DNA of 64,000 nt. It comes from Phorcus lineatus. Its lineage: Eukaryota; Mollusca; Gastropoda; Trochida; Trochidae. The stretch is taken from the NCBI GenBank assembly GCA_921293015.1, contig OV121090.1:34941082-35005081 (forward strand). Direction: 5' to 3'. The translations under genes and the position numbers were made by a program. The notes under the pieces are model-generated. The model did not search any database, had not been told where the DNA came from, and saw only the letters and a program-made list of their open reading frames with translations. Every line of letters begins with the position of its first letter. The first letter of the stretch is position 1. This document shows positions 1 through 63,905 of the stretch, one piece after another.

Positions 1-866
1 CTGTCTCACAGATGGCTCCTCAGACCATCACCCCTCCACCTCCAAATGCTCTCACCTCTTGAACACATGAAGCTCTCCCCACGGCGACGCATCACATGCA
101 CTCTTCCGTTAGTTACGAACAGCTTGAACCTGCTTTCGTCTGTAAACAACACACGAGCCCAGTTCCGGTTCTGCCATCTCATTACAGTACGGGACAACCT
201 CAGTCGGTTACATCGATGAAGCGGGGTCAAGGTTACACCGCGGAATGGTCTGTACATTCGAAGACCATATCTTCGAAGTCGTCTAGTTAATGTCTGCCTA
301 CTCACAGCGTGTCCAAATGATGACACTGCAGTTGACGTCATTGTGAGAAACCGATTACGTATTAACCGTAAGTAGCAGTCTTCATTGGGTGTGGTCAAGT
401 GCGGACGTCCAGTTTCTGGTCGACCTGAGGTCTCACCAGTGTCACCAACCCGTCTCGCCAGTCTAGTAATGGTTGATGTGTGACAATTCTGGCAGGTTCT
501 GGCCACGTGGTCCTGAGTCGCACCCTGCTGCAGCATCCCAACTGCTCGCTCACGCTCCACCTGCGACAATCTTGGCATTTTCGTTTTGGTAATTCACATC
601 AGAAAGGTCGACTGAGTCAGCTCATTCTCCTTTTATACTTGAATATGGCACGTGCAACGGAATTTGCATGCTTTGCATGATCTTGTCTTTAAAATCAATA
701 TTCTTCAAAGTTATTGACACAGGTTGCATTTTATCAATGATGTCAATGAGTAGACATACCAATTATTGTTTCAGCATAACTTTGAAACCACCATATATGA
801 AATTTTGGAAATTATTTAATTTTTTATGTAAAAATATTATGTAGGCGTTTCTTTTAGACGGCAGTG
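1..866 (-). mobile_element. Tc1-like DNA transposon, one end
   Basis: The element that carries the broken transposase. Read on the - strand its 5' terminus is CACTGCCGTCTAAAAGAAAC, ending at base 866 and followed by TA at 867-868. TA is the dinucleotide target used by Tc1/mariner elements. The terminus is about 288 bp ahead of the transposase start, which is ordinary spacing for this group. The other end is outside the window. Confidence 0.75.
6..578 (-). pseudogene. Tc1-like transposase, broken, cut by window edge
   Basis: The frame reads as the N-terminal two thirds of a Tc1/mariner-superfamily transposase, which would bind the element's terminal inverted repeats and move it by cut and paste. 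A helix-turn-helix DNA-binding half (about residues 3-110) contains a GRP hook-like segment 'GRPETGRP' near residues 52-59. The start of the DDE domain follows, with the first catalytic Asp in 'VLFTDESRF' near residue 147. The copy is dead. After 'GESFMC' (about 60-66 on +) the family-like continuation 'VQEVRAFGGGGVMV' lies in another frame, so there is a small indel. In that frame an expected Trp codon has become TGA. The rest of the DDE domain would lie left of base 1. The family call is from recognised motifs and no search was done. Confidence 0.88.
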
Positions 867-885
867 TATTTTTGAGGCAGCATAA

Positions 886-1167
886 TCATTCTTTAAATTT
901 ATCAAATAAACAATTGATAAATTTACTAAGTTTTCTTTGTGTGCATAAGTCCTGAGCAGATAAGAGTTGGTTTAATTTATATAAACTGGGTCTAATTACA
1001 AAATGTTGATTAACAAACTTATTTCTTTCATACACAAATGTTGAGCAAATGTGCAATTCATCACCAACCCCAAGATGACAAAGTGGGCAGATTCTATCAA
1101 GATAGGGGACATGAGACCATCTTCCCTTTTCTACTGGTAGTGAATGGTTACTTGTACAATAAGACAA
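886..1167 (-). pseudogene. non-LTR reverse transcriptase C-terminal remnant
   Basis: A 93-residue frame with the sequence style of the C-terminal tail of animal non-LTR retrotransposon polymerases. The segment 'SNHSLPVEKGRW' is followed by a zinc-knuckle-like Cys/His cluster (CPLCHLGVGDELHICSTF) and a Lys-rich end. The usual pattern in this tail is RxSNHxLxIExGRW, then CPxCxxxxGDExHxLFxC; here the last Phe-x-Cys is changed. No polymerase core is present upstream, so this is a short dead fragment. The part at 1108-1167 is also the left edge of the 1132-bp tandem unit and is repeated at the start of each unit. Confidence 0.75.
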
Positions 1168-4100
1168 TTATCAAGCCAATTATCAAACCAATCAACCAAT
1201 CATCAAACAATCAACCAGCCAAGTGTCCCAAAGCACATTGCTTAAATGATATCTTTTCAATGATAATCCTTTTAATAGCATTTAGGGATTAATCTAAATG
1301 ACTTGCTCATGTGTTATTAAAATAGTTTACTAGAGGACTAAATGAACTATAAACAGTCATAAAATTAAAATTTCTTTCCACCTGACCTGTTTATTTACCC
1401 TCTTACACTTCCCCAACCTGACCTATTCATTCAAAATTCATTCATTAATTATTTTATTATGCATCCATATCATGATGATTTCCAAGAAGTTTCCTATTGA
1501 TTACTGATTTGTTTTATTATAAGAGAAAAACATGTATAATTATTATCCTGAATCACCTTACTGTTAATTATAAAAGTATTGCAAAGTATGTTAGAAAAAC
1601 AGTAAAATTTTAAGCTGTGGCAGGGGTTGTTTTGCCATATTTTATAGAAATACCATGGAAACAAGGACCCCATGTAAATAAGTAAATATTGGCATATGTT
1701 TTCAAAATGTTAAAAAGATTTAACCAAATAATTAAAGAACTGTTTATTTGACATTAAAGGGTGGGGAAATATGTTATTTATGATCATCAGGATGTTTGTC
1801 AGAATTGGCAGTTACACTCTTATAGAAGTGTATTTATCAATACCACGGAAACAGGTAACACGAGGGTGTTATGGCCGAGTTAATTTGCTCATAAAAAAAA
1901 TCAAAATGATCATTGATATAAAAAGTAACCGCCAAACGCTATATATATAAAATGTTCCCCAATCAGTTATTTAAGATTCGTGTATTTGTAGCCGAGCTTA
2001 TTTCGACAGATGTGAAGATACCCCACCTGGGTACTGTTCAATAATGAAGATATGATACTGAGACAATAATTACTGCAGTAGATTGAATTACTTTGATGCG
2101 GCTGAAAACACATTGAAATAAAAGAAATCTTCTTACCCAGCTTGACAAGAACAGTGTGCATAGGATATCTCAGATGGTTTGACGTCCATGTTGAGTATAT
2201 GTGGAACTTCAGTCTTCAGCATCCCAACATGACATGAGACCATCTTCCCTTTTCTACTGGTAGTGAATGGTTACTTGTACAATAAGACAATTATCAAGCC
2301 AATTATCAAACCAATCAACCAACCAACCAATCATCAAACAATCAACCAGCCAAGTGTCCCAAAGCACATTGCTTAAATGATATCTTTTCAGTGATAATCC
2401 TTTTAATAGCATTTAGGGATTAATCTAAATGACTTGCTCATGTGTTATTAAAATAGTTTACTAGAGGACTAAATGAACTATAAACAGTCATAAAATTAAA
2501 ATTTCTTTCCACCTGACCTGTTTATTTACCCTCTTTCACTTCCCCAACCTGACCTATTCATTCAAAATTCATTCATTAATTATTTTATTATGCATCCATA
2601 TCATGATGATTTCCAAGAAGTTTCCTATTGATTACTGATTTGTTTTATTATAAGAGAAAAACATGTATAATTATTATCCTGAATCACCTTACTGTTAATT
2701 ATAAAAGTATTGCAAAGTATGTTAGAAAAACAGTAAAATTTTAAGCTGTGGCAGGGGTTGTTTTGCCATATTTTATAGAAATACCATGGAAACAAGGACA
2801 CCATGTAAATAAGTAAATATTGGCATATGTTTTCAAAATGTTAAAAAGATTTAACCAAATAATTAAAGAACTGTTTATTTGACATTAAAGGGTGGGGAAA
2901 TATGTTATTTATGATCATCAGGATGTTTGTCAGAATTGGCAGTTACACTCTTATAGAAGTGTATTTATCAATACCACGGAAACAGGTAACACGAGGGTGT
3001 TATGGCCGAGGTAATTTGCTCATAAAAAAAAATCAAAATGATCATTGATATAAAAAGTAACCGCCAAACGCTATATATATAAAATGTTCCCCAATCAGTT
3101 ATTTAAGATTCGTGTATTTGTAGCCGAGCTTATTTCGACAGATGTGAAGATACCCCACCTGGGTACTGTTCAATAATGAAGATATGATACTGAGACAATA
3201 ATTACTGCAGTAGATTGAATTACTTTGATGCGGCTGAAAACACATTGAAATAAAAGAAATCTTCTTACCCAGCTTGACAAGAACAGTGTGCATAGGATAT
3301 CTCAGATGGTTTGACGTCCATGTTGAGTATATGTGGAACTTCAGTCTTCAGCATCCCAACATGACATGAGACCATCTTCCCTTTTCTACTGGTAGTGAAT
3401 GGTTACTTGTACAATAAGACAATTATCAAGCCAATTATCAAACCAATCAACCAACCAACCAATCATCAAACAATCAACCAGCCAAGTGTCCCAAAGCACA
3501 TTGCTTAAATGATATCTTTTCAGTGATAATCCTTTTAATAGCATTTAGGGATTAATCTAAATGACTTGCTCATGTGTTATTAAAATAGTTTACTAGAGGA
3601 CTAAATGAACTATAAACAGTCATAAAATTAAAATTTCTTTCCACCTGACCTGTTTATTTACCCTCTTACACTTCCCCAACCTGACCTATTCATTCAAAAT
3701 TCATTCATTAATTATTTTATTATGCATCCATATCATGATGATTTCCAAGAAGTTTCCTATTGATTACTGATTTGTTTTATTATAAGAGAAAAACATGTAT
3801 AATTATTATCCTGAATCACCTTACTGTTAATTATAAAAGTATTGCAAAGTATGTTAGAAAAACAGTAAAATTTTAAGCTGTGGCAGGGGTTGTTTTGCCA
3901 TATTTTATAGAAATACCATGGAAACAAGGACACCATGTAAATAAGTAAATATTGGCATATGTTTTCAAAATGTTAAAAAGATTTAACCAAATAATTAAAG
4001 AACTGTTTATTTGACATTAAAGGGTGGGGAAATATGTTATTTATGATCATCAGGATGTTTGTCAGAATTGGCAGTTACACTCTTATAGAAGTGTATTTAT

Positions 4101-6835
4101 CAATACCACGGAAACAGGTAACACGAGGGTGTTATGGCCGAGGTAATTTGCTCATAAAAAAAAATCAAAATGATCATTGATATAAAAAGTAACCGCCAAA
4201 CGCTATATATATAAAATGTTCCCCAATCAGTTATTTAAGATTCGTGTATTTGTAGCCGAGCTTATTTCGACAGATGTGAAGATACCCCACCTGGGTACTG
4301 TTCAATAATGAAGATATGATACTGAGACAATAATTACTGCAGTAGATTGAATTACTTTGATGCGGCTGAAAACACATTGAAATAAAAGAAATCTTCTTAC
4401 CCAGCTTGACAAGAACAGTGTGCATAGGATATCTCAGATGGTTTGACGTCCATGTTGAGTATATGTGGAACTTCAGTCTTCAGCATCCCAACATGACATG
4501 AGACCATCTTCCCTTTTCTACTGGTAGTGAATGGTTACTTGTACAATAAGACAATTATCAAGCCAATTATCAAACCAATCAACCAACCAACCAATCATCA
4601 AACAATCAACCAGCCAAGTGTCCCAAAGCACATTGCTTAAATGATATCTTTTCAGTGATAATCCTTTTAATAGCATTTAGGGATTAATCTAAATGACTTG
4701 CTCATGTGTTATTAAAATAGTTTACTAGAGGACTAAATGAACTATAAACAGCCATAAAATTAAAATTTCTTTCCACCTGACCTGTTTATTTACCCTCTTA
4801 CACTTCCCCAACCTGACCTATTCATTCAAAATTCATTCATTAATTATTTTATTATGCATCCATATCATGATGATTTCCAAGAAGTTTCCTATTGATTACT
4901 GATTTGTTTTATTATAAGAGAAAAACATGTATAATTATTATCCTGAATCACCTTACTGTTAATTATAAAAGTATTGCAAAGTATGTTAGAAAAACAGTAA
5001 AATTTTAAGCTGTGGCAGGGGTTGTTTTGCCATATTTTATAGAAATACCATGGAAACAAGGACACCATGTAAATAAGTAAATATTGGCATATGTTTTCAA
5101 AATGTTAAAAAGATTTAACCAAATAATTAAAGAACTGTTTATTTGACATTAAAGGGTGGGGAAATATGTTATTTATGATCATCAGGATGTTTGTCAGAAT
5201 TGGCAGTTACACTCTTATAGAAGTGTATTTATCAATACCACGGAAACAGGTAACACGAGGGTGTTATGGCCGAGTTAATTTGCTCATAAAAAAAAATCAA
5301 AATGATCATTGATATAAAAAGTAACCGCCAAACGCTATATATATAAAATGTTCCCCAATCAGTTATTTAAGATTCGTGTATTTGTAGCCGAGCTTATTTC
5401 GACAGATGTGAAGATACCCCACCTGGGTACTGTTCAATAATGAAGATATGATACTGAGACAATAATTACTGCAGTAGATTGAATTACTTTGATGCGGCTG
5501 AAAACACATTGAAATAAAAGAAATCTTCTTACCCAGCTTGACAAGAACAGTGTGCATAGGATATCTCAGATGGTTTGACGTCCATGTTGAGTATATGTGG
5601 AACTTCAGTCTTCAGCATCCCAACATGACATGAGACCATCTTCCCTTTTCTACTGGTAGTGAATGGTTACTTGTACAATAAGACAATTATCAAGCCAATT
5701 ATCAAACCAATCAACCAACCAACCAATCATCAAACAATCAACCAGCCAAGTGTCCCAAAGCACATTGCTTAAATGATATCTTTTCAGTGATAATCCTTTT
5801 AATAGCATTTAGGGATTAATCTAAATGACTTGCTCATGTGTTATTAAAATAGTTTACTAGAGGACTAAATGAACTATAAACAGCCATAAAATTAAAATTT
5901 CTTTCCACCTGACCTGTTTATTTACCCTCTTACACTTCCCCAACCTGACCTATTCATTCAAAATTCATTCATTAATTATTTTATTATGCATCCATATCAT
6001 AATGATTTCCAAGAAGTTTCCTATTGATTACTGATTTGTTTTATTATAAGAGAAAAACATGTATAATTATTATCCTGAATCACCTTACTGTTAATTATAA
6101 AAGTATTGCAAAGTATGTTAGAAAAACAGTAAAATTTTAAGCTGTGGCAGGGGTTGTTTTGCCATATTTTATAGAAATACCATGGAAACAAGGACACCAT
6201 GTAAATAAGTAAATATTGGCATATGTTTTCAAAATGTTAAAAAGATTTAACCAAATAATTAAAGAACTGTTTATTTGACATTAAAGGGTGGGGAAATATG
6301 TTATTTATGATCATCAGGATGTTTGTCAGAATTGGCAGTTACACTCTTATAGAAGTGTATTTATCAATACCACGGAAACAGGTAACACGAGGGTGTTATG
6401 GCCGAGTTAATTTGCTCATAAAAAAAAATCAAAATGATCATTGATATAAAAAGTAACCGCCAAACGCTATATATATAAAATGTTCCCCAATCAGTTATTT
6501 AAGATTCGTGTATTTGTAGCTGAGCTTATTTCGACAGATGTGAAGATACCCCACCTGGGTACTGTTCAATAATGAAGATATGATACTGAGACAATAATTA
6601 CTGCAGTAGATTGAATTACTTTGATGCGGCTGAAAACACATTGCTTAAATGATATCTTTTCAATGATAATCCTTTTAATAGCATTTAGGGATTAATCTAA
6701 ATGACTTGCTCATGTGTTATTAAAATAGTTTACTAGAGGACTAAATGAACTATAAACAGCCATAAAATTAAAATTTCTTTCCACCTGACCTGTTTATTTA
6801 CCCTCTTACACTTCCCCAACCTGACTTATTTATCT
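1108..6835. repeat. 1132-bp tandem array, five units plus a fragment
   Basis: The same sequence returns at 1108, 2231, 3363, 4495 and 5627. The first unit is 1123 bp (8 bp fewer in a CCAA-rich run and one A fewer in an A-run); the next three are exactly 1132 bp. Copies differ at only a few bases, so amplification or homogenisation was recent. The fifth unit is cut short at about 6643 and joined to a later part of the unit, giving a sixth partial copy up to about 6835. Each unit starts with about 60 bp of the reverse-transcriptase remnant. A 64-codon frame on - recurs in four copies (1967-2161, 3099-3293, 4231-4425, 5363-5557). It is identical only because the DNA is, and I do not call it a gene. 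Confidence 0.97.
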
Positions 6836-7611
6836 ACCCTCTCCCACCTCCCCCACCTGACCTGTTTATTTACTCTCTCCCACCTCCTCCACCTGACCTG
6901 TTTATCTACCCTCTCCCACCTCCCCCACCTGACCTATTTATCTACCATCTCCCATCTCCCCCACCTGACCTGTTTATTTACTCTCTCCCACCTCCCCCAC
7001 CTGACCTGTTTATCTTCTCTCTCCCACTTCCCCCATCTTACCTGTTTATCTACCCTCTCCCACCTCCCCAACCTGACCTATTTATCTACCCTCTCCCACC
7101 TCCCCCACCTGACCTGTTTATTTAACCTCTCCCACCTCCCCCATCTGACCTGTTTATCTTCTCTCTCCAACCACCACTATCTCACCTGTTTATACCCTCT
7201 CCCGCTTCCCCTACCTGACCTGTTTATCTACCCTCTCCCACCTCCCCCATCTGACCTGTTTATCAACCCTCTCCCACCTCCCCGATCTCACCTGTTTATC
7301 TACCCTCTCCCACCTCCCCTGTCTCACCTGTTTATCTACCTTCTTACACTTCCCCCATCTTACCTGTTTATCTACCCTCTCCCACCTCCCCCACCTGACC
7401 TGTTTATCTACCCTCTCCCATCTCCCCCACCTGACCTGTTTATTTACTCTCTCCCACCTCCCCCACCTGACCTGTTTATTTACTCTCTCCCACTTCCCCT
7501 ACCTGACCTGTTTATCTTCTCTCTCCCACCTCCCTTATCTGACCTGTTTATCTTCTCTCTCCCACCTCCCTTATCTGACCTGTTTATCTACCCTCTCCCA
7601 CCTCCCCTACC
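6781..7611. repeat. 36-bp pyrimidine-rich minisatellite, about 23 copies
   Basis: Tandem copies of a unit close to CCACCTGACCTGTTTATCTA followed by CCCTCTCCCACCTCCC, about 36 bp, with scattered substitutions (TTTATT, TTCTCT, GATCTCACC variants). The array begins inside the sixth partial copy of the 1132-bp unit. That unit already carries one and a half copies of the motif (for example 1378-1432), so the seed can be seen in place. Strong C/T bias on +. No coding potential. Confidence 0.95.
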
Positions 7612-22021: not shown

Positions 22022-22274
22022 GCGGACTCTAAGAATTTAGCAGGATCTTAAATAGTGACCTGGGCCCGGATTCACCAAACTTCTAAGAATTTTCTTAAGC
22101 CTTAAGAATTCTTAAATCCGCTAAGAATTCTTAGTTTCCATAGCAACCTACATGATACTTAGTTTTTTTCTTAAGCAACATTCATCAAACATCTCAGTGC
22201 TTAAGTTTGTTCTTAACATTAAGAATCCTTTATAGGTTACTTATATATTTAAGAATTTTCTTAACAAAACAAAG

Positions 22275-24196
22275 ATGGCTGCCAATGCTTTTATTCACAT
22301 TGATCGCTCGAACATTTTGGAAACATACACAGAAAATGAGCTTACAAGAAGATTCCGATTGACAAAAGACGGTATACAATTTGTAGTAAACTTGATATCT
22401 GATGAAATATCACCATTAACCAAAAGAAGTAAGCCGTTATCAGCCACAGACAAAGTTCTTTTGACACTGCGTTATTTTGCCACCGGTAAAATGCAGCTAT
22501 GCAATGCCGACCACTTAGGTGTGTCACAGTCCTCTGTAAGTAGAGCTGTACATGATGTCATTAATGCTCTATCATCCCCTGGCATTGTTAAACAATTTAT
22601 TCATTTCCCTACGAATGCAGCTGACATCAGGCGAAATCAACTTGGATTTTATGGAATCGCTAATTTTCCCGGAGTGGTAGGTGTAATAGATGGAACTCAC
22701 ATCCAGATAATTGCACCTTCCCTACACGAACCTGCTTATGTGAATAGGAAACATTACCACAGCATAAACACTCAGGTGGTGTTTGATCACAGGTCCATGT
22801 TGCTCGATGTCGTTGCCAAATGGCCCGGAGCCACTCATGACTCGAGAATTTTGACAGAGAGCGGTGTTTGTGCACTATTCTCCCGCCACATGATGCCTGG
22901 CGGTTGTCACTTGTTGGGAGATAGTGGATATCCCTGCAGAGACTGGCTCCTCACCCCGTATCTGCGTCCAAATCCCGGGTCTCAGACATCTTACAACAGG
23001 TAAATATTGTGTCCGATCACTGCCATGTTTCGAACGTGATCAAATCAGAGTTATTCCCCTTTAAAGTTGACTATAAAACTTTAACTGGGTTTCATCAAAA
23101 CTGAAATCGTTTTCAAATATGGAAAGTTCCAAAATATCTTGCAAAGTCGCAATATGAGACCTTAATGGATTACGTAGATCGTTATTATTAATATGATTTT
23201 CATCAAGTGACGAGTAAAATATCCTTATGATGATCCATATATTTTTTTGACCTAATAAAGAGCATCTGTTAAGTACATGCATTATACTAAGAAGTTCAGA
23301 TAAAAATTGAAAATTAGAAATATCCTTTCAAAATTTTAACATTTCACTATATATTAAAAGAGTTCTTCTAAAAATTGTTTATTTTTATTAGAGCTCACAA
23401 GAAGACAAGAAGTGTGGTCGAACGAGGTATTGGCCAGCTGAAACGTCGCTTCCATGTTTTGCATGGAGAAGTAAGGTTGACACCACAAAAAACATGCAAG
23501 GTATAACCAACTTTCATGTAAATATCCTTTGTGTGTATTTTTGAATAAATAATTGGGGGTATGAATGTATGAAATAATTTTTACTGAACCTCTAAAAGTA
23601 TTAGTAATTCTATAAACTGTGAACCAAGTTTCCATTCAAACATGAATACTATTTATGTATATGTATAATAATTGCCCAAAATATCAAATCAATTCTTGTC
23701 TAAGGTAAATCTTAAAAGTCCTACACGTGGCAAAAATTATTTTAAGGTGATATTAATTGCTCATGAATATAAAATACTAAAAAATAGTGTCTAAACAAAT
23801 CTAATACTTTGCACCAAAAGAAATGCAAATCAAGAAGCAATAGGAAAGATTAGGTATATTGTTAAATCCACTTTTTCTTTTATGTTAAGGACCACTTCAC
23901 AATGATTGCTGGCATTCATTATTATAAGGATTATTAATTTATCTCTAAAAAGGCTATAGGCTTAAATGAATATATATTATAAGTCTCCATTATAAGTCAA
24001 TCTTCATAAATATGGTTCTTTTTCATAGGTCATCACATGTTGTGCTGTATTGCACAATATTTGCAAGATAAGAAATATACCTATGCCTGACGAGGAAGAA
24101 ATCCGTCCAGATGAGGACAATCAACCAGAGATTCCTCAGCAGGTTCCAGGCCACAACTTGATTTACCGAGATCATTTTGCAAATACACACTTCTAG
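22275..24196 (+). CDS. Harbinger (HARBI1-like) DDE transposase, 3 exons
   Basis: The nuclease that cuts and joins the element. Exons are inferred at 22275-22999, 23392-23500 and 24029-24196. Junctions are ACAG|GTAAAT, TTATTAG|A, GCAAG|GTATAA and CATAG|GTC, and the phases fit, giving 333 residues (human HARBI1 is 349). An N-terminal helix-turn-helix-like part (about 55-95, 'LGVSQSSVSRAVHDV') precedes the catalytic core. The core has Asp139 in 'GVIDGTHI', the family HSIN and 'WPGATHDSRIL' blocks, Asp216 in 'LLGDSGYP', and Glu252 in 'SVVERGIGQLKRRF', which lies in exon 2. 'CCAVLHNI' follows in exon 3, and the tail is acidic. No stop or frameshift is seen, so the enzyme may be active. The ATG lies 213 bp inside the left terminus. 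Frame and motifs are seen; introns are inferred. Confidence 0.92.
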
Positions 24197-25187
24197 GTAA
24201 GACCAAGTATATAATATCTCCAATGCATTGTGAACATCCAAAAATTGAATTTAATACAAACAGCAGTAAAAACTTTTCAACATTTATTGACTGTGTTGTT
24301 GGTTCAAAGCAAATGTGAAATATTGACAAATATTAATATTATTAGATCACAAAGGTGTTAAAGCTCATAATAATTCACTGAACTATCACTCTTTTTAAAA
24401 ATGGCTGTTGGTTCTGCATTGATCAATGTCCAAATCATTTTTATTTAGTCAAAAAAGTATGATAATTATAGAGTTAGAAAAATGGAGATATTTTGCAATG
24501 TATTTTTTGATATGCTTTTCCATAAATATATACAATTTATGTCCAAATTAAGAGACATAAATAATTTCATAAGAGGGGTATATAAACAACAGCAAAAATA
24601 TTCACCATTACCAAAAAAACACAGCGGCACTAATAGATAAATAAACATTTCAATACCTAAAATGTAAAATTTGTTTAACATTTTTTTTCTTTCCCAGATA
24701 AATCAGATCATGTCCTTCGAAAATGTTAATTTCTGAAAGGCACTGCAGCACATTTTGTCAGGATAATTCAGTGATTTGCAAGACAATCAATTTTTATCAG
24801 GAAAGGCAGCTCTTAAACTATCAAATAATTTACCTACTTGAAATGATTTCAAGATGTACAAACCAATGTTTATATATGTAGAAATGGACAGGTTGAATGC
24901 TGAATAATATTTTGAAAGGTAGTGTTAGGTTTTATTGCAATCCCGGAATATTGTTAAATGTCAAATTTCTTTAATAACAAAATTACCATGAGGTGAGAAA
25001 ACCCTAAAATCCCTTATGAACTGCAACTTGCTATTTAGATTAAAACATTAAAATTAAAGAATTTGATTTTAAATATACACTTATCCCCCAAATGATGAAA
25101 ATGTGGAGGAGTACCGAATTAAAAGTATTTCTCATTATTATTATTAATACTCACAAATACATTTGGACATGATCTGATTTATAACTC
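24197..25187. other. convergent 3' region inside the Harbinger element
   Basis: About 1 kb of AT-rich sequence between the two stop codons. No further gene, and no clear polyadenylation signal was identified. Confidence 0.5.
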
Positions 25188-27763
25188 CTACTCTTCCATA
25201 ATCTTTTTGAGCTGTTCTTCCATTATTTTTTTCTTTAATTCAAGAACATCAATTTCCAGTTTGATTTTTTTCTCTAACAGATCACTGTAAGAGTGTGGAT
25301 TTGCTGATCTCTTCTGGGTCTTCGGGGGCTGGAGACTCTTTTGGATATCAACATCTCTAACTGTTGACAGGGACCCACCCATGGCTGTCAGGGTCTGAAT
25401 GTCAATGACTGACATGACATCGCTAAAATCAATGTAAATTGAATCATATTTCATCATTCAATTTGTACGGGTCAAAGCTGCCTATATTATTGTGTGTAAA
25501 TAAATTATTTACTATGTTGTGGTTGAAGTACTAAGGAAAAAGCTATTCAGTCATATTCATTTATGAATAATATCAGTTTGATTGGTGATTTAAAGTATGT
25601 ATGTCGTCTCTTTTTAAAATACTTACAATTTCTACACTAATATAAATCAGTCAGACAGCCAGGTTTATGAATTGTCAAACTGTTGACTGTATACTAGAAA
25701 CCACAAGGACAAAGCTTTTATTATCATTATTGTATGGCTTCAACCTCAGAAAAAATGAATATACAATATCTTATGACCTCAATGTCTTGTATGGTTTTAA
25801 ATAGTTTGTTTTTAACCTGATAAATGTCCAAAATGATTAAGCAATTTAAGAAAATGATTACTGTATTATTGGTGGAATTTTATCTGAACAATAAACAATT
25901 TTCATAATGATATTATGTATTAATTTTTTTTAGATTGTTTTGTTGTGTATCACTTACTTTGACTCGCTAAGTTGAAGTAGAGTGGTGTCCACTGAATCAG
26001 GAATCCCACTGATGGATACATTGTCCTTTCCCAAAATATCCCAAACAACTTCAGCTGCTTCATTTAACCCTTGTTCAGAGGGACCACCACCTGAAACATA
26101 TTCAAGTTTAGTTTGGATAATGTATTTTGATACTACTTATCTGTATAGAAAAATATGTAAGAGGGTAAAATATGATAGATTGTATGTAGTATATATTTGT
26201 ATAACGACATGGGGAATCAATTTCCAGAGATGAATATTTTCAGCACACAAAAATTTTCTTTGAATAAATTATTAATCTTACATGAAATGTTTAATTCTTA
26301 CCAGTGGTAGTGGATGCTTTCTTGAAGGCAGCAATTTCTGTTTTTGATTTTGACTGGATGTTATGCCATTTCTTTTCAACTTCCTCCATTGTCCTTACAC
26401 ATCCTATCATAGGAAAACAACCTCATGTTCAAATAAAGAATATATAATAAATCAATATGTTTTTAAATCAAAATATTCCAATTATCTAAATATTATGAAA
26501 GACTAGAAAGATTTACTTGCATGAAGATTACATCTAACAATTTGTGTTACATAAGATGTTTTACAATAATTTCATGATATTGATAACCTCAAATCTACAA
26601 CATTTTCTGCATGCAATTGTTAATATAAACATTTGACTCTATGTCTGCCTCTGGTTGGGATTGAACCAACTCCATTTAATGGACTGCCATTCAAAAGCTT
26701 TATGGGAGTCAAAACAATAAAATTAAAATGATAAATTTATGATAATGTTAAAACATAATACAGAAAGTGATGTAAACTAAAAAATAAATTCAGGTAAAGA
26801 AAGTGTGAATATTTCACTCTTTGTAAAATTAAATGAGAAATAATATGTGTGAATCTATCACACTTTGGCAAGACAATGTGAGAAATAAAATGTGTGATTC
26901 TTTCACACTTTGGTAAAATAAAATGTGTGATTCTTTCACACTTTGGCAAAATAAAATGAGAAATAAAATGTGATTATTTCATACTAGGGCAACATAAAAT
27001 GAGAAAAGTAATTTGTGATTCTTTCACAGTTTGGGAAAATAAAATGATGATTAATATGTGTGAATCGCTCACAATTGGTAAAATGAAATTATTATCCTTA
27101 TGTGCAATCATTTCACATTTTGCTGAAATGATATATGAATTTTCCAATAGTATTGATAAAATATAAAACATTACTGTATCATCATAATCTCATGAACATA
27201 TTAAATTCTCTTCATAGTATATGTTCATACTTACCTTAACAAAAAACCTCCATTCTAGCTAACATAAAATATAATTGGCAAAACTGCATTGTATAATTTA
27301 GACGTTCATCAACATGTCAAGTCATCTACAAATCATTTTGAAATAGGGTTATTGAATAAAATAAATATGTAATAAAGTACTTCAGAAACTTTAAAACATT
27401 TGATTTATCATTAGTCAGTTCATCTTCTATAACTTTCGCTGATCAAAATTAGGACACATGCATTATTGTTCAAAATTGACACATTTCAACTCTTACTTTA
27501 TGTTATTAAAATATGTTCTATCCATATGGAAAATAGAAATGTTGAAGAGAAAAACCATGTTCAGTTAAGTGAACATGAAGATGGAATATGACATAGGCCT
27601 ACTGTTCTTTCAAAACTTACGATAGTCACTCAATGAAAACATACCTGTGAAGGCGGCGTTTATTTGGCTTGTAATTTTTACCCACGTCTCTTTTTTCCGG
27701 AGTGAGGGCTTGCTCGGCCGACCAGTTTGGCTTTCTTGTGTTCTTTTTTTCGCTGTTTTCCAT
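25188..27763 (-). pseudogene. Harbinger Myb/SANT-like DNA-binding protein, frame broken in exon 1
   Basis: The second gene of the element. In Harbinger systems such a protein binds the transposon ends and helps bring the transposase into the nucleus. Exons are inferred at 27645-27763, 26302-26403, 25958-26090 and 25188-25422, all with GT/AG junctions. Exons 2-4 join in phase and read 'RTMEEVEKKWHNIQSKSKTE', then a linker, then a Leu/Lys/Glu coiled coil at the C-terminus (ending about 30 residues of heptad-like 'LLEKKIKLEIDVLELKKK'). Exon 1 starts well from the ATG at 27763 ('MENSEKKNTRKPNWSAEQAL'). The continuation that fits the family and the downstream phase ('LRKKETWVKITSQINAAF') lies in another frame. 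The middle of the Myb helix region is missing at the switch. This copy therefore looks inactivated by a small out-of-frame deletion, unless it is an assembly error. Confidence 0.75.
26740..27160. repeat. degenerate palindromic minisatellite in a Harbinger intron
   Basis: About nine copies of a 40-60-bp motif containing GTGTGATTCTTTCACAC, itself a small hairpin (GTGTGA with TCACAC), joined by AAAATGAGAAATAAAATG spacers. It lies in the first intron of the Myb-like gene. The 70- and 65-codon - frames here are the repeat read in frame. Confidence 0.8.
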
Positions 27764-28072
27764 GTTTTGGAATTTGACGTCTGCTTTTGTTTAGAGATAC
27801 GACGCTAATGTAACTCTGTGTAAGGAGAGTTCCAATATTGCTATTAATAGATATGGGGATTTCCATAACGTCACTTAAGAAATTTCTTAGCGTAAATTTG
27901 TATCCCATAATTCCGCGTGTTTCTTACTTAGAAAATTCTAAGTATTTCAGAAAATCTCAGCTAAGATTTGTGCTTAGAAGTTTGTTGGGTTCTTACTTAA
28001 GATTTTTTCTCAGCTAAGAATTTTTAAGGAAACACTTAAGAAAATTCTTAGAAGTTTGGTGAATCCGGGCCC

Positions 28073-28642
28073 TCATACTGTAATGGGCAAGTCACTGTGT
28101 CCACATTGCACTCAGTGAACCCAGCTGCTTAGATTGGCTACCTGAGAACGGATGTACGGATACAGTCTTACATAGTACTCAGTTGCTGCTTTCAAAGTGG
28201 TCCAATCCCTTCAAGGTGATAATATGAAAACTCCCTTGAGCATCATTCTGGGAGGAGCCTGAACAGTGTAAGTATATATAAAGTCTTGTACTAGTTACAA
28301 TTTGGACCTGGTAACCTCCCTATAATTGATTTCGATCTTTACATCCCAAGTAACAAACACAGCATGTTTTAACCATGTTTATTTATCTCTATAACAGTTC
28401 AGTATATGTATATAGGCATTGGAGCCTTACATTTCACAACAAAGGAATAAATAACACATGTCTGTCTGTTACATGATTAGTAACACTGTCTTTGGTACCT
28501 GGTCAGTCATAGAAGTTTCACCTTCGCAGTCAACTGTGCTAAAGCTTTTTCTCCTTGTATGTTTTTTTAAGATTCTTTCTTAAACGTCACACATACAATT
28601 GTCTGGAAACTGTCAGGAATTTTGGACTCTTAGACATGCAAC
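28073..28642. other. gap between Harbinger and the MITE
   Basis: Unique sequence downstream of the GPCR gene (which is on -). Candidate - strand polyadenylation signal AATAAA at about 28378-28383. No gene. Confidence 0.45.
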
Positions 28643-28932: not shown

Positions 28933-31900
28933 CTACATCAGAGAAGTCTCAAACTCCTTTTTCCATTGTTTTGACACCTGGTAAATGTTGTAACAACCAC
29001 AACAAAATATATATTTGAGAGTTTTGCGGAAATACGGGCTGATGATGCAGTAGAGGATGAAGTTCACAGAGAAATTGATGGACTGCATGAAGTTCATGAT
29101 AGCTTCGATTGTCATGTATGCGTAGTTATTGTCATTATTGGTAATCTTGGCAATATGTATCACAATTTCCGAGGGGGCAACAAATATGAAAAACATCACA
29201 ACAATCACAACAAGTGTTATTGTCAGGGTATGACTAGAATTTTCCGAACCATGACGGTCCTGCTTGAATTTCTGCCTCATTTTGTATGAGCGGTATATTT
29301 TACGACACAAGCAGACATTGAAGTAAAATAGCAGCACAAGAGGGATAAAATTGCCAATGAATGCCCAGGCTAGGCGATACATTGTATCAATCTTGTTGCT
29401 TCCCATCAGATATACATTGTCTGGGTGGTAGGTCGGGTGAGTTGAGTTTCCCCCACACAACAGGCGCGCTTCGTATCTCCACAGAATCGGAATATTGAAC
29501 AAGAAGGAAAATATGTAGGATATGACAATGACTATTTTGATGCGACGAGTAGTTAGATATAGATCCTGTCGCAAGGGGTAACAGATTGCCAAGAAACGTT
29601 CCAGAGACATCGCAACTGTCAGCCATGTACTGACCATTATAAACACATTGATGATTGCCGCTCCATATAAGCGGTACATCAGAATGAACCCCTCACTCGT
29701 ATATATGTCATCTCCAGGTAGAAACAGTGACGGAAATGCAAACACACAAAACATCAAATCCGAGACTGCCAGCGAGACTAGGCAGTAATTGGCTGCCATT
29801 TCCAACGTTCGGAAAGACTTCTGAAGTTTGCGTCGTGTGAGGATGGTGAGGTTGAGAATATTACCCACCATGCCAAAGAGGCACACACTTGGCAGGGCAA
29901 AGCCATAGATGACGTATCCAACATTCTCAAAGACCTGCTTGGCTCGCTCACTCCCCAGTCCAGTATTGTTTGCATCCTCTGTTAGGTTCACACAGGCCCC
30001 CTTGATCCTGCAGAGGGAAGCATAATGTTAGTAAGTTAGTGATAGTTGACACTGAAATAGTTAAGCAGATTTATTATAAATGAAATATTAATTACATTCA
30101 CGTAAACGTCTCTGAAGAATTATACCTGCTTTTCATGTTATTCAGTTTTCGTGCAAAAAAGTGAAAATCCAAAATTTTATCATGTAAGATTTTGCATTAA
30201 CTACCATAACCTTTTCAGGATGTTTTCATAAAAGACGATTTAATAGACTTTCAAGTGTTTCAAAATAATGCTTTGTAAATTAGTGCATCACAAAGAGACA
30301 TGCATTTGGAACATTTAGATGGATATGTTTTGCTCATCTTGTAATCTTGATTTCTTTCCTTGACAATGACAATATTTCAATTAAATTCATAATGATCTTT
30401 GAAAGAGACTAATTTTAAAGTCTGTCAGGAGTTTTTCTTGTCTCTAAGTTTTTGCTGTACTTAACTTTTCAGAGATTCAATGGCAACTATGAAGCAGTTA
30501 AGAAATATGTCAACCCTTTATATTTCAAGAATGGTCAATATCATAAGTGCAGGCAGTTGAGTGTTAACATGTCTAATGAGGTTTTAGCATAATTTTACCG
30601 AGCAAGATTCCAGACGGAATTGGTAGGGACCTCCATCTTGAGAGAGGTCGTGACCAGGCTGCAATTAACTCACCAGCTCTTGCCAGAGAAGGATGTGTAC
30701 TAGAGTGACTATTGAATTATTGTGGAATCATGAATCCCTTAATTATTCTCTGCCTCATAACTGTTAATTCATTTATATGCTATCCGGTGTGACTTCATGA
30801 GCAGTCTCATATTGATTATTCTGATTATTATCATTTTCATTTAAGAGGAGAAATTGAGTAGAAATGCTGTTTAAGTTATCAAGTCTGGTGTGTTAAGTAA
30901 TGGGGATTGGAATGATTATGAAATTGAGATTGATTAATGAATCTGTAAGATCCTTATTTATGAGTTCTCATTATTCCCTTACTTGTAATTTAATCAAATA
31001 CCAGAAATAATTATTTCTGAAAGCTTGTGTCTGCACCATAATTTTAGAAAAAACTGATTCATAATTGAGATGGAAATTATTGAATATATTGAGGTTTTAA
31101 AAAATTGGAAATTGGTCAAGCAATTTTGAAATTATGAAAGATCTAAAACGTCATTATTCAAGTTAATATCACTTTGCAATATATAAGAATCAGAATTTAA
31201 TATTTGTAAATCCAGATCCCTATTCAGAAGATATTTTGAAATAAAAAAGGAGGTTTGGAAACATGCTTTTTCATCTATTATTTTGTATCTAAGTTATAAA
31301 AAAGTCTACACAGTTTAAAATGATCAAAGTATCATTAAGATTATAAAATATGCAATCTTTAAGAAAGTAAGATTCTTAATAACATAATAAAGGAATATAT
31401 TTGCCATTAAAAATCTACTTTCCTCATAACAAATTTGTCATGATATTCATTGTTGACTTGATTCATGAAAATGAACCTTTATCAATAATGGAAAGCAGTT
31501 TCTCTTCCTACATTCACAATAGTCAAGTTCATTGTTGACTGATCTATAATGGAATCTAGAGAAGTGTCTGAAACAATTTTTTTAAAAATATTATTTGTTC
31601 AATTTCAACATTAACATTAATATTCTAAGCTTCTGCCATATTTTTCACTCAAACATAGGTTCAAAATAACTATAAATGCTTCAGAGAAAGAATGTATCAA
31701 TATTTTGAAGAATTGTTTTCTCTCTTTTTTGTTGTTAGTGTTAAAATGATATTTGACCGACACCGGTTGAAGGTTCAATCATTTTATAGCATTTTATAGT
31801 GATACACGTACATATCAACATTGGCGCGCTCTGGTTGCGGCCATCGTTGGAATGAGAGCGAGGCTCGGTAGTTACTGTAATTGTAACTGCAAGGCGGAAT

Positions 31901-40200: not shown

Positions 40201-40449
40201 GTAAGTGATATGTTGGTTTGATAAAAGATTACGAGACTTTCCATTAACATGAATATACATGTTCTAAGTGGTCACATACGCTTAATTGTATCACTTGCAA
40301 GATAAGTTAACATTAATTATAACATTTAAAAAATTTAGTGCTTATAAATAATCTATAGACAAAATCTGAGATTTGTAACCAAATGTAGTCAAGTTCGTGA
40401 TATAATCTTTACAGGCCATAGAGATTACTCACTTAATGTTTTCTCGGAG
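37278..40449. other. no gene seen; one 42-bp duplication
   Basis: AT-rich. A 42-bp tandem duplication at 37576-37661 (ATTGCTATGAATATATGACC twice). At 38948-39242 both strands are open for about 95 codons over the same bases. Neither reading has a domain, so I do not call either. Frame 39575-39811 (+) likewise. Confidence 0.4.
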
Positions 40450-40759
40450 GTGAGGTGATTTGGGGTTTACACTGCTTTCAAGAGTATTTCACAAATATAT
40501 CGCGGCTGCTAGTATTTTTGCAGGGAGAAAGCCCGCAACACCATTGTGGCTAAGAATTGCGGTGAAACCTGCAGGCATCGGTTGGAAGTAGTGAACCATC
40601 GTTGTTACTGCATTGATATTCAGTGTAGCATTTGACCCAAACCTTACTGCATGTAGAACAGTTCTCTACTGCAGACAAAGTTGCCAAAGTTGCGGGATCG
40701 GAACCACAGACCTCTTGATCAAAAGCCAAATGCGCTAACCACTGCTCTATTCCGCCCCT
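40450..40759 (-). mobile_element. tRNA-derived SINE, family A, near full length
   Basis: Read on -, the head is tRNA-like: GGGGCGGAATAGAGCAGTGG, then TTAGCGC (A box region). A 7-base anticodon-type loop CTTTTGA follows (TTT, Lys-like), then GTGGTTCCGATCCC (B box). The body is shared with the copy at 63655-63905 (for example CTGCAGTAGAGAACTGTTCT, and the end containing CTTGAAAGC). RNA polymerase III would transcribe it and LINE enzymes would copy it. The 76-codon - frame here is a shadow. Confidence 0.8.
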
Positions 40760-42833: not shown

Positions 42834-43745
42834 CAATAGTCTGTCCTTGATAGTTGCTACCAATGATGGGTCAACAAATGTTGTCCTCGATAGTTGTTAA
42901 CAATGATTGTTTATCAATAGATTCTCCAAAACATCATTCATAGTTGCTTACACTGATGGGTCATCAAAACATCATTTATATATGCTACCTGAATGATGGG
43001 TCAACAAAAAGTCATTTATATACATGTATGCTACCTGAATGACAGGTCAACATAATATTTTCTTTCATAGATACTACCATAATGATGGGTCAACAAGGTG
43101 TTGTCATTGATGGATGCTACCAGTGATGGGTCAACATGATTTTGTCCTTTATAGATGCTAGCTGAATGATGGGTTAACAAAATATTGTCATTTATAGATG
43201 CTATCTGAATGATGGGTTAACAAAATATTGTCATTCATAGATACTAGCTGAATGATGGGTTAACAAAATATTGTCATTCATAGATACTAGCTGAATGATG
43301 GGTTAACAAAATATTTTCATTCATAGATACTAGCTGAATGATGGGTTAACAAAATATTGTCATTTATAGATGCCATCTGAATGATGGGTTAACAAAATAT
43401 TGTCATTCATAGATACTAGCTGAATGATGGGTTAACAAAATATTGTCATTCATAGATACTAGCTGAATGATGGGTTAACAAAATGTTGTCATAAATAGAT
43501 ACTAGCTGAATGATGGGTTAACAAAATATTGTCATTCATAGATACTATCTGAATGATGGGTTAACAAAATATTTTCATTCATAGATACTAGCTGAATGAT
43601 GGGTTAACAAAATATTGTCATTCATAGATACTAGCTGAATAATGGGTTAACAAAATATTGTCATTTATAGATACTACCTGAATGATGGGTTAACAAAATA
43701 TTGTCATTTATAGATACTACCTGTCAGAATGATGGGTCAACAAGA
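42834..43745. repeat. 43-bp minisatellite, about 21 copies
   Basis: Unit close to ATGATGGGTTAACAAAATAT followed by TGTCATTCATAGATACTAGCTGA. Central copies (about 43150-43700) are nearly identical. Copies at the left edge (42834-43130) and the right edge are diverged, with GGGTCAAC in place of GGGTTAAC, as expected of an array turning over from the middle. Confidence 0.96.
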
Positions 43746-61840: not shown

Positions 61841-63654
61841 TTGTCGGGAGAGCTACATACTTTAATCAGCTATTGCCTTAGTGCAGAAAGATGACAGGTG
61901 AAAGTGACAACAAAAACGTATTGACATAAGTTCAAACAGATATAAATGAATCTATTTTTTTGGAGGTTTCAAGATATTTTTCAACATAAAACATGAATTT
62001 GTATATTGGTACATGTAAAACTTAATGTATATAAGCATTAACTGGATATGATTACGTTTTGAAAATAATTTCAAAATATCTTATTCAGATTGTTTTTAAG
62101 CTTAAGATATATTAAGTTCTTGAATTCTTTATTCTTAAAGAAAGTCCTCTAAATACGAACATTTTTTTAATGTGAAAAATTTTCATCTTGTACAAAAACT
62201 TCTAATTTTTAAGATACTTTCTGTTTTAATTAAAGTGTTTAACATTTTGCTGACATTGCAGATCATCAGATGAGAATTTTTGCCAACAAGCTTTTTTTAA
62301 CATGCTAATGCACATATATATATGTCTTTTTGCATCAGGATCCATGTCAGGGGCCAATCCGGACAGGTGTATAGGTTTTGTATGAATAATCAATAGGAAT
62401 TATGTTTTGTGTATTATGGAATTTGTCTCTGAGTAATGTGTGCATTGTCTGTTTTTGAGAAAAAAAGCATTATCGCTGTATTACATATGACATTAACTTT
62501 TTCTGGTATGAGCATGTCAACAAAAAAAGAGTTTCTGACTTATTTTTAAAATTCCTGATAGAAGAAGAAAAACCAAGGTCATTTTCTTTTACTTATTTTG
62601 AATCTGGCACTCTCTGATGGTAAACAAGGTCCTAACCTTCTAAACCTTTTCAACTTTTATCTCCAGAATGAAAAAAGATAAAATAATGGTGGATTTTGTG
62701 ACGCTGATGCAACAAACCTTTTTTCATTTTCTCCAGGACAAAAAGCTCAAGGGACTTCTAAACTATACGTGGCTAATGCTACCAATAAATTGTAGATTTG
62801 TTGACAAATTATTTGTTTTTGAACTTAGGTCATATATTAGTTATTGCCTATCAATTTACATTAAACTATAGAAAGAGTTTGCAATTGTTTTTGATAAAAA
62901 CTTTGATGCAAAATAAATCCTCTTATGTATGAAATGAGAAAGAATATAAACAAAAATTCTTCATCACCTCAAAAACTATAGACAATATTACTGATATGAA
63001 AGATTACATTACTTAACTATATCATTCTAAAGCCACAACGCCTTGTATATATTGATTTTCTTTTCAGATAGCGTTTTTACAATATTTGTGCAAATGTGGG
63101 TATCAAAACCAAAAATAGCAATTTGAAAGTTAAAGGGCTTTGGTCTTAATACGTCAATAGTTATCTTGAAGGAGGAATTGAAATTGAAGAAAAAAATGGT
63201 TTCAAAAGAAGAAAACTCACAAGAGAGTTTTCTAATTTTGTGATAGTAATGAAAGTGCATGTTGTTTGTTGCCGGATATGACAAAGGGGAAGTTGACAGA
63301 TATTGGTTATATTTTCCCATTGACCATGGACATCAAAGCAAGTTTTGTGGCCTCTACCAATCAATTTCAGCAAATTTTTCAATCTGAGAAAAAAAACTGA
63401 ATTTAAGAAAGAAAATCAATGATCTTGTTTATTGAATTGTAAAAGATTAGAGTTAGTTCTTGTTTGTGTCTTTGATTTAACCCATAATGAAGGTATTTCA
63501 AAAAGTTTAATAATTACGTCCTAAAGACAAGAAATCAATATAATATGCATCTGTTGTTGTTAGTTGCTGAGGATTAAGAATTAACAGTAAAAAAACATTA
63601 ACAATAATGTTGTGTTTTTAGAAATGAAAAATGTTATTTTTCAAAAAGATAGGT
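61841..63654. other. no gene seen
   Basis: AT-rich. Frames at 62668-62871 (+) and 63027-63382 (-) have no recognisable domain. Confidence 0.45.
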
Positions 63655-63905
63655 GATAGGTGATATAGGGTTTAACGCCGCTTTCAAGAGTATTTCCCTT
63701 ATATCGCGGCTACTAGTATTATTTCAGGGAGAAAGCCTACAACACCATTGTGGCTATGCATTGCGATGAAACCTGCGAGCATCGGCTGGAACTAGCGAAC
63801 CATGGGTGGTACTGCTCTGAATTCAGAGTAGCATTGCACCCAAACCTGACTGCGTATAGAACAGTTCTCTACTGCAGACAAAGTTGCCGAGCCCCTGGTG
63901 GGATT
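63655..63905 (-). mobile_element. tRNA-derived SINE, family A, head truncated
   Basis: Same body as 40450-40759 in the same orientation. On + it shows TTTAACGCCGCTTTCAAGAG, then ATATCGCGGCTACTAGTATT, then ACACCATTGTGGCT, then AACAGTTCTCTACTGCAGAC. It diverges near 63895 where the tRNA head would begin. The retained CpGs suggest a younger copy than the first. GATAGGT-type short repeats flank its tail. Confidence 0.8.

Follow-up and report, generated by a model that had tools for sequence, protein, structure and literature searches.

Here, we describe a DNA transposon in a 64,000-bp stretch of the genome of the gastropod Phorcus lineatus (GenBank assembly GCA_921293015.1, contig OV121090.1, positions 34,941,082 to 35,005,081 of the forward strand; referred to as the window, with position 1 as its first base). 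We take it, with a probability of about 0.88, to be a recently inserted, CWG-duplicating (NuwaI) member of the PIF/Harbinger (PHIS) transposons that survives as a transposase-only copy, its Myb gene being broken. An initial annotation had presented the same element as an apparently complete, young Harbinger transposon at 22062..28072, with an intact split transposase and a readable second gene. The youth of the element and the state of its transposase hold up in the present analysis, and its completeness does not. This correction is of practical consequence, as anyone looking for active copies would have been led astray by the claim.

The termini agree over 38 bases, as the initial annotation had it. 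All 38 of 38 bases are complementary between 22062-22099 and 28035-28072, with 5,935 bases between them, and the terminal 19-mer occurs at two sites only in the window, both of them element ends (3 or fewer mismatches allowed; no site in 100 shuffles). The target site was defined from 35 distinct flanks, taken from the window and the fetched loci at ends with 3 or fewer substitutions; more diverged ends were dropped. CWG, where W is A or T, adjoins the end in 30 of these flanks (per position: C in 32, A or T in 34, and G in 33), and the preceding base is C or T in 27. The remaining five read CCG, TTG, GAA, CTA and, on the right side of the window element, GAG outward, i.e. CTC. Because CWG is found at 30/35 flanks, one of the 38 bases is assigned to the target and the element proper comprises 22063-28071, with terminal inverted repeats (TIRs) of 37 bp. 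The originally proposed span thus located the termini, but 22062-28072 is ruled out as the exact boundaries since the CWG flanks assign one base per end to the target. A two-ended pair of termini was found at 15 of the 17 places examined, window included, when the outermost pair was taken at each place and eight inner pairings, all of them non-matching, were set aside. An exact 3-bp duplication is present in nine of these 15 copies, and in all nine it is CTG or CAG. A few of the 35 flanks closely resemble one another. They come from contig C41, where three relatives, at L030/L038, L033 and L036, have nearly one common 20-base flank, ending AACGTTGGAAACGYCAG. Either these relatives arose by joint duplication or they entered a repeat, and they are a possible source of empty sites.

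The insertion is recent. The initial annotation had proposed a search of the source genome with the termini, and in the assembly (958 Mb in 74 contigs) a search with 237 bases of the left end gave at least 41 matches, a lower bound since scoring covered 40 of the 108 first-look candidates. Three matches, window included, agree with the query at 100% along its whole length, and a fourth is at 93% among the matches listed. The two sister copies, L010 and L009, have the same ends as the window element. L010 measures 6,089 bp and has 9 substitutions relative to the window copy over 6,011 aligned bases (0.15%); L009 measures 5,571 bp and has 7 over 5,507 aligned bases (0.13%); and the two sisters differ from each other by 9 substitutions in 5,571 aligned bases. 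The claim of a young element is well founded in these figures. Assuming a neutral rate of a few substitutions per billion sites per year, the copies would lie some hundred thousand years apart. All three have different flanks (30 bases compared per side), and are therefore separate insertions. Both sisters reside on one contig, C39, as they might if the three copies were segmental duplications, but this reading is scarcely conceivable and was rejected on the different flanks and on the exact 3-bp duplication that L009 and L010 each have of their own. In addition, the 600-bp flanks of the window element match only their own place (L003, L027) in 210 kb of fetched loci, save for one 28-base stretch in the window. 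The target of L010 is an extended palindrome, TTAAGCCCTGGGCTTAA, containing a TTAAG core of the kind that also fills the ends of the element.

Transposition has also involved relatives that share these ends but have hardly any coding sequence, or none. Exact CTG duplications flank two of them (L014 and L015), in which neither protein of the family gave a match, and a third of 1,047 bp (L011) has an exact CAG duplication and transposase fragments only. Further copies of about 2.2-2.4 kb are found at L040, L041 and L043-L046.

The transposase gene of the window copy is open throughout (Table 1). Its three exons have GT..AG borders and join in phase without a stop to give a protein of 333 amino acids plus stop codon, with splicing predicted from sequence only. 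Residues 138-288 match the Pfam family DDE_Tnp_4 (PF13359; 1.4e-39), and the catalytic triad consists of D139, D216 and E252. A helix-turn-helix of the DDE-endonuclease type scores 21.1 bits in Pfam, below the cut-off of 27. On these points, i.e. the exon coordinates, the stop-free join, the triad and the intact split transposase, the initial annotation was correct. Neither the paired termini nor this gene structure is a product of chance. The protein is identical in the window copy, L009 and L010. A search of the PDB by sequence gave no convincing relative (best E 0.052), and in a scan of viral contigs for relatives one stretch matched a pattern and none was confirmed.

The second gene, encoded on the minus strand and Myb/SANT-like, is broken. 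Compared to L010, the window copy has lost 68 bp at 27703/27704, inside the Myb domain, such that the frame of the start (KPNWSAEQALT) disagrees with that of the subsequent Myb residues (KKETWVKITSQINAAF). The window copy therefore has no open Myb frame. Other splice choices did not restore one: no frame above 200 amino acids was obtained from the ATG at 27763 on the minus strand, the sole start tried, with splice borders near the four exons. The same exons in L010 encode one Myb protein of 218 amino acids (Pfam Myb_DNA-bind_5, 7e-19), and the broken peptide of the window matches no Pfam family up to E 0.1. Since two old and decayed relatives encode the missing residues, all of them in L048 (whose version of the exon contains a stop at another point) and most of them in L049, the state of the window gene is a loss. 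The Myb gene is also broken in L009, through a loss of 14 bp in the same stretch of exon 1. Thus, the transposase is open in 3/3 recent copies, and both genes are open in one of the three, L010. The window copy furthermore lacks 10 bp at 28030 that both sisters carry. Neither "apparently complete" nor "two-gene" is an adequate description of this copy.

Both losses in exon 1 fall in a stretch with the potential to form hairpins. A 150-base piece around it, chosen after both losses were known, folds as single-stranded DNA better than all of 200 shuffles (z -3.61). The loss in the window removes the right arm of a 7-bp stem, and that in L009 about the left arm and the loop of a 10-bp stem. At the borders of the deletions, there are 4 bases of microhomology in the window copy and 1 base in L009. 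The simplest cause of the losses would be hairpin slippage, as judged from the two events. L009 lacks a further 502 bp in the non-coding middle of the element, and losses are therefore not confined to the Myb gene. One intriguing possibility, which we find unlikely, is that exon 1 of the Myb gene is a built-in weak point that is repeatedly lost, such that two-gene copies keep becoming transposase-only and dependent on the Myb protein of a few complete copies. If copies of this kind still move, they would represent a natural division of labour within a set that is less than 0.2% apart in substitutions. The unusual folding and the occurrence of gaps in two of the three copies could also mean that this stretch is difficult to read. 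The 68-bp gap would then be an error of assembly or consensus, and the window copy fully autonomous. This we regard as quite improbable: the two gaps differ in length and position, the gap in the window is bordered by microhomology, a frequent feature of genuine deletions, and the window copy has private substitutions and the 10-bp loss elsewhere.

The combination of an intact transposase and a broken partner gene would also be expected if the transposase were now a host gene under selection and no longer part of a mobile element. Domesticated transposases exist in the PIF/Harbinger superfamily, e.g. HARBI1, and insect cases are reportedly known as well. However, the TIRs are perfect and the sisters at unrelated places are only 0.13% and 0.15% different, which makes the element too young and leaves several mobile copies. 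On these grounds domestication was rejected as very improbable, and we hold to a transposase-only copy of a mobile element.

The ends of the element have a further feature in common. The motif YTWAGAA/TTCTWAR, picked after inspecting the element ends, has 24 sites in the element, 21 of which are within the outer 215 + 205 bp, and the 57,991 bp of the window outside the element have 71. These arrays are candidate binding sites for the Myb protein, as predicted from their position and density.

Table 1. Features of the transposon in the window, in order of position
Feature	Position	Strand	Basis
Left copy of the target duplication, CTG	22060..22062		CWG in 30/35 distinct flanks; 9/15 two-ended copies identical
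Left TIR, 37 bp (38 if the adjoining target base is included)	22063..22099	+	100% complementary to 28035-28072
Left subterminal region, dense in YTWAGAA/TTCTWAR	22063..22277		Motif count
Transposase exon 1 (ATG; D139, D216)	22275..22999	+	Pfam DDE_Tnp_4 on the spliced protein
Transposase exon 2 (E252)	23392..23500	+	AG/GT borders, frame
Transposase exon 3, with stop codon	24029..24196	+	Splice border, frame
Myb-like gene exon 4, with stop	25188..25422	-	Splice borders; in-frame join in L010
Myb-like gene exon 3	25958..26090	-	Splice borders; in-frame join in L010
Myb-like gene exon 2	26302..26403	-	Splice borders; in-frame join in L010
45-bp tandem array, about 6.7 copies, in intron 1 of the Myb-like gene	26803..27089		Repeat unit and copy number
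Myb-like gene exon 1, broken	27645..27763	-	Alignment with L010 and L009
Right subterminal motif-rich region, without the 10-bp stretch	27867..28071		Motif count; alignment with L010 and L009
Right TIR	28035..28071	-	100% complementarity to the left end
Right target site, CTC (differs from CTG at one base)	28072..28074		Comparison of two-ended copies

An intact member of the family would express two convergent genes, one for a DDE transposase and one for a Myb/SANT-like protein. The transposase would cut and join DNA in cut-and-paste movement, and the Myb/SANT-like protein would attach to the ends and be required for nuclear entry of the transposase, as in studied relatives. The window copy, having lost 68 bp in the hairpin-rich stretch of exon 1, would make transposase only. 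Judged by its sequence, it is probably not self-mobile but could supply transposase, and could itself move if another copy provides the Myb protein. The window element is thus likely to be a transposase-only copy that depends on an outside source of Myb protein. We infer the Myb requirement from relatives, and likewise infer that supply may take place in trans and that there is present activity.

In the surroundings of the element, a 364-amino-acid open frame at 28933-30027 on the minus strand encodes a G protein-coupled receptor (GPCR) of the rhodopsin type (7tm_1, 5.4e-25). Its 3´ end is about 860 bp from the element, and the insertion is therefore downstream of the GPCR gene. At the far left of the window, positions 1108-6658 hold a tandem array of a 1,132-bp unit in nearly five copies at about 98-99% identity, and just outside it an open reading frame at 6-593 (minus strand) matches a helix-turn-helix of a Tc3-type transposase (Pfam, 5.6e-08). 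Other repeats are a 36-bp tandem repeat with 23 copies and more than one open frame (6781-7611), a 43-bp minisatellite with 17.5 copies (42972-43723), and a direct repeat of about 240 bp, the two copies of which (40448-40685 and 63651-63888) are 85% identical. At gathering scores, no Rfam family matched the window.

The PHIS superfamily is described as comprising PIF/Harbinger, ISL2EU and Spy, and the strict PIF/Harbinger group as having a TWA target duplication and a DDE and Myb/SANT gene pair (Han et al., 2015; PMC4482050). In the same account, NuwaI elements are marked by CWG duplications together with a DDE gene, and most of the autonomous candidates carry a Myb/SANT gene as well. They are divided into 23 families from 16 animals, including one mollusc, and both genes are open in 11 of the families; the TIRs are 12-61 bp long and usually start with GGG, and the average length is about 4.46 kb (PMC4482050). 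Its target duplication places the window element in the CWG (NuwaI) group and not in the strict PIF/Harbinger group. With the latter it shares the DDE plus Myb/SANT pair and a duplication of 3 bp, and it differs in the target, which is CWG in the window family and TWA in that group. The Harbinger identity given by the initial annotation is consequently correct for the superfamily but not for the strict TWA group. The fit to NuwaI, for which the published families were compared by their descriptions, is in target, gene pair and TIR length: CWG is duplicated in the family (30/35 flanks), the transposase is of the PIF/Harbinger kind (DDE_Tnp_4, PF13359, 1.4e-39; triad), a Myb/SANT second gene is present in L010 (7e-19) and broken in the window copy and L009, and the 37-bp TIR is within the range of 12-61 bp. 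The element, at about 6.0-6.1 kb, is longer than the NuwaI average.

Several observations weigh against our interpretation. Six of the 15 two-ended copies, the window copy among them, are without an exact 3-bp duplication, and the duplication of the window insertion itself is imperfect, with CTG to the left and CTC to the right. With the CWG boundary, the element starts with GGC; the GGG start usual for NuwaI is obtained only by counting the last target base as part of the element. Moreover, further copies with both genes open may exist uncounted. As a member of a known transposon group, the element is informative yet ordinary. Word-based literature searches, made without sequence search, found no paper on it.

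Among known systems, Harbinger-Snek of sea kraits has solo-ORF variants that keep the transposase, have lost the DNA-binding gene and occur beside complete and short non-autonomous copies; the variants are multi-copy and the losses are ascribed to large deletions (PMC8437027). The window family likewise has transposase-only copies beside complete and short non-autonomous ones, but its deletions are small (68 and 14 bp) and found in one copy each among those seen. The zebrafish element Harbinger3_DR has a CWG target and, as in the window family, is part of a two-protein system with a Myb-like partner. For Harbinger3_DR / Harbinger3N_DR, the Myb-like protein is reported to bind the ends and to be needed for nuclear localisation of the transposase; in rice Ping/mPing, excision is usually exact and is abolished or lowered by mutation of the Myb fold or of a catalytic residue, and both proteins are needed in the relatives studied (PMC2836001). 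The zebrafish element was reconstructed, whereas the window family offers natural, near-identical copies, one of them with both frames open. With one gene constant and the other broken in two of three copies, this set makes the need for a Myb partner testable without reconstruction.

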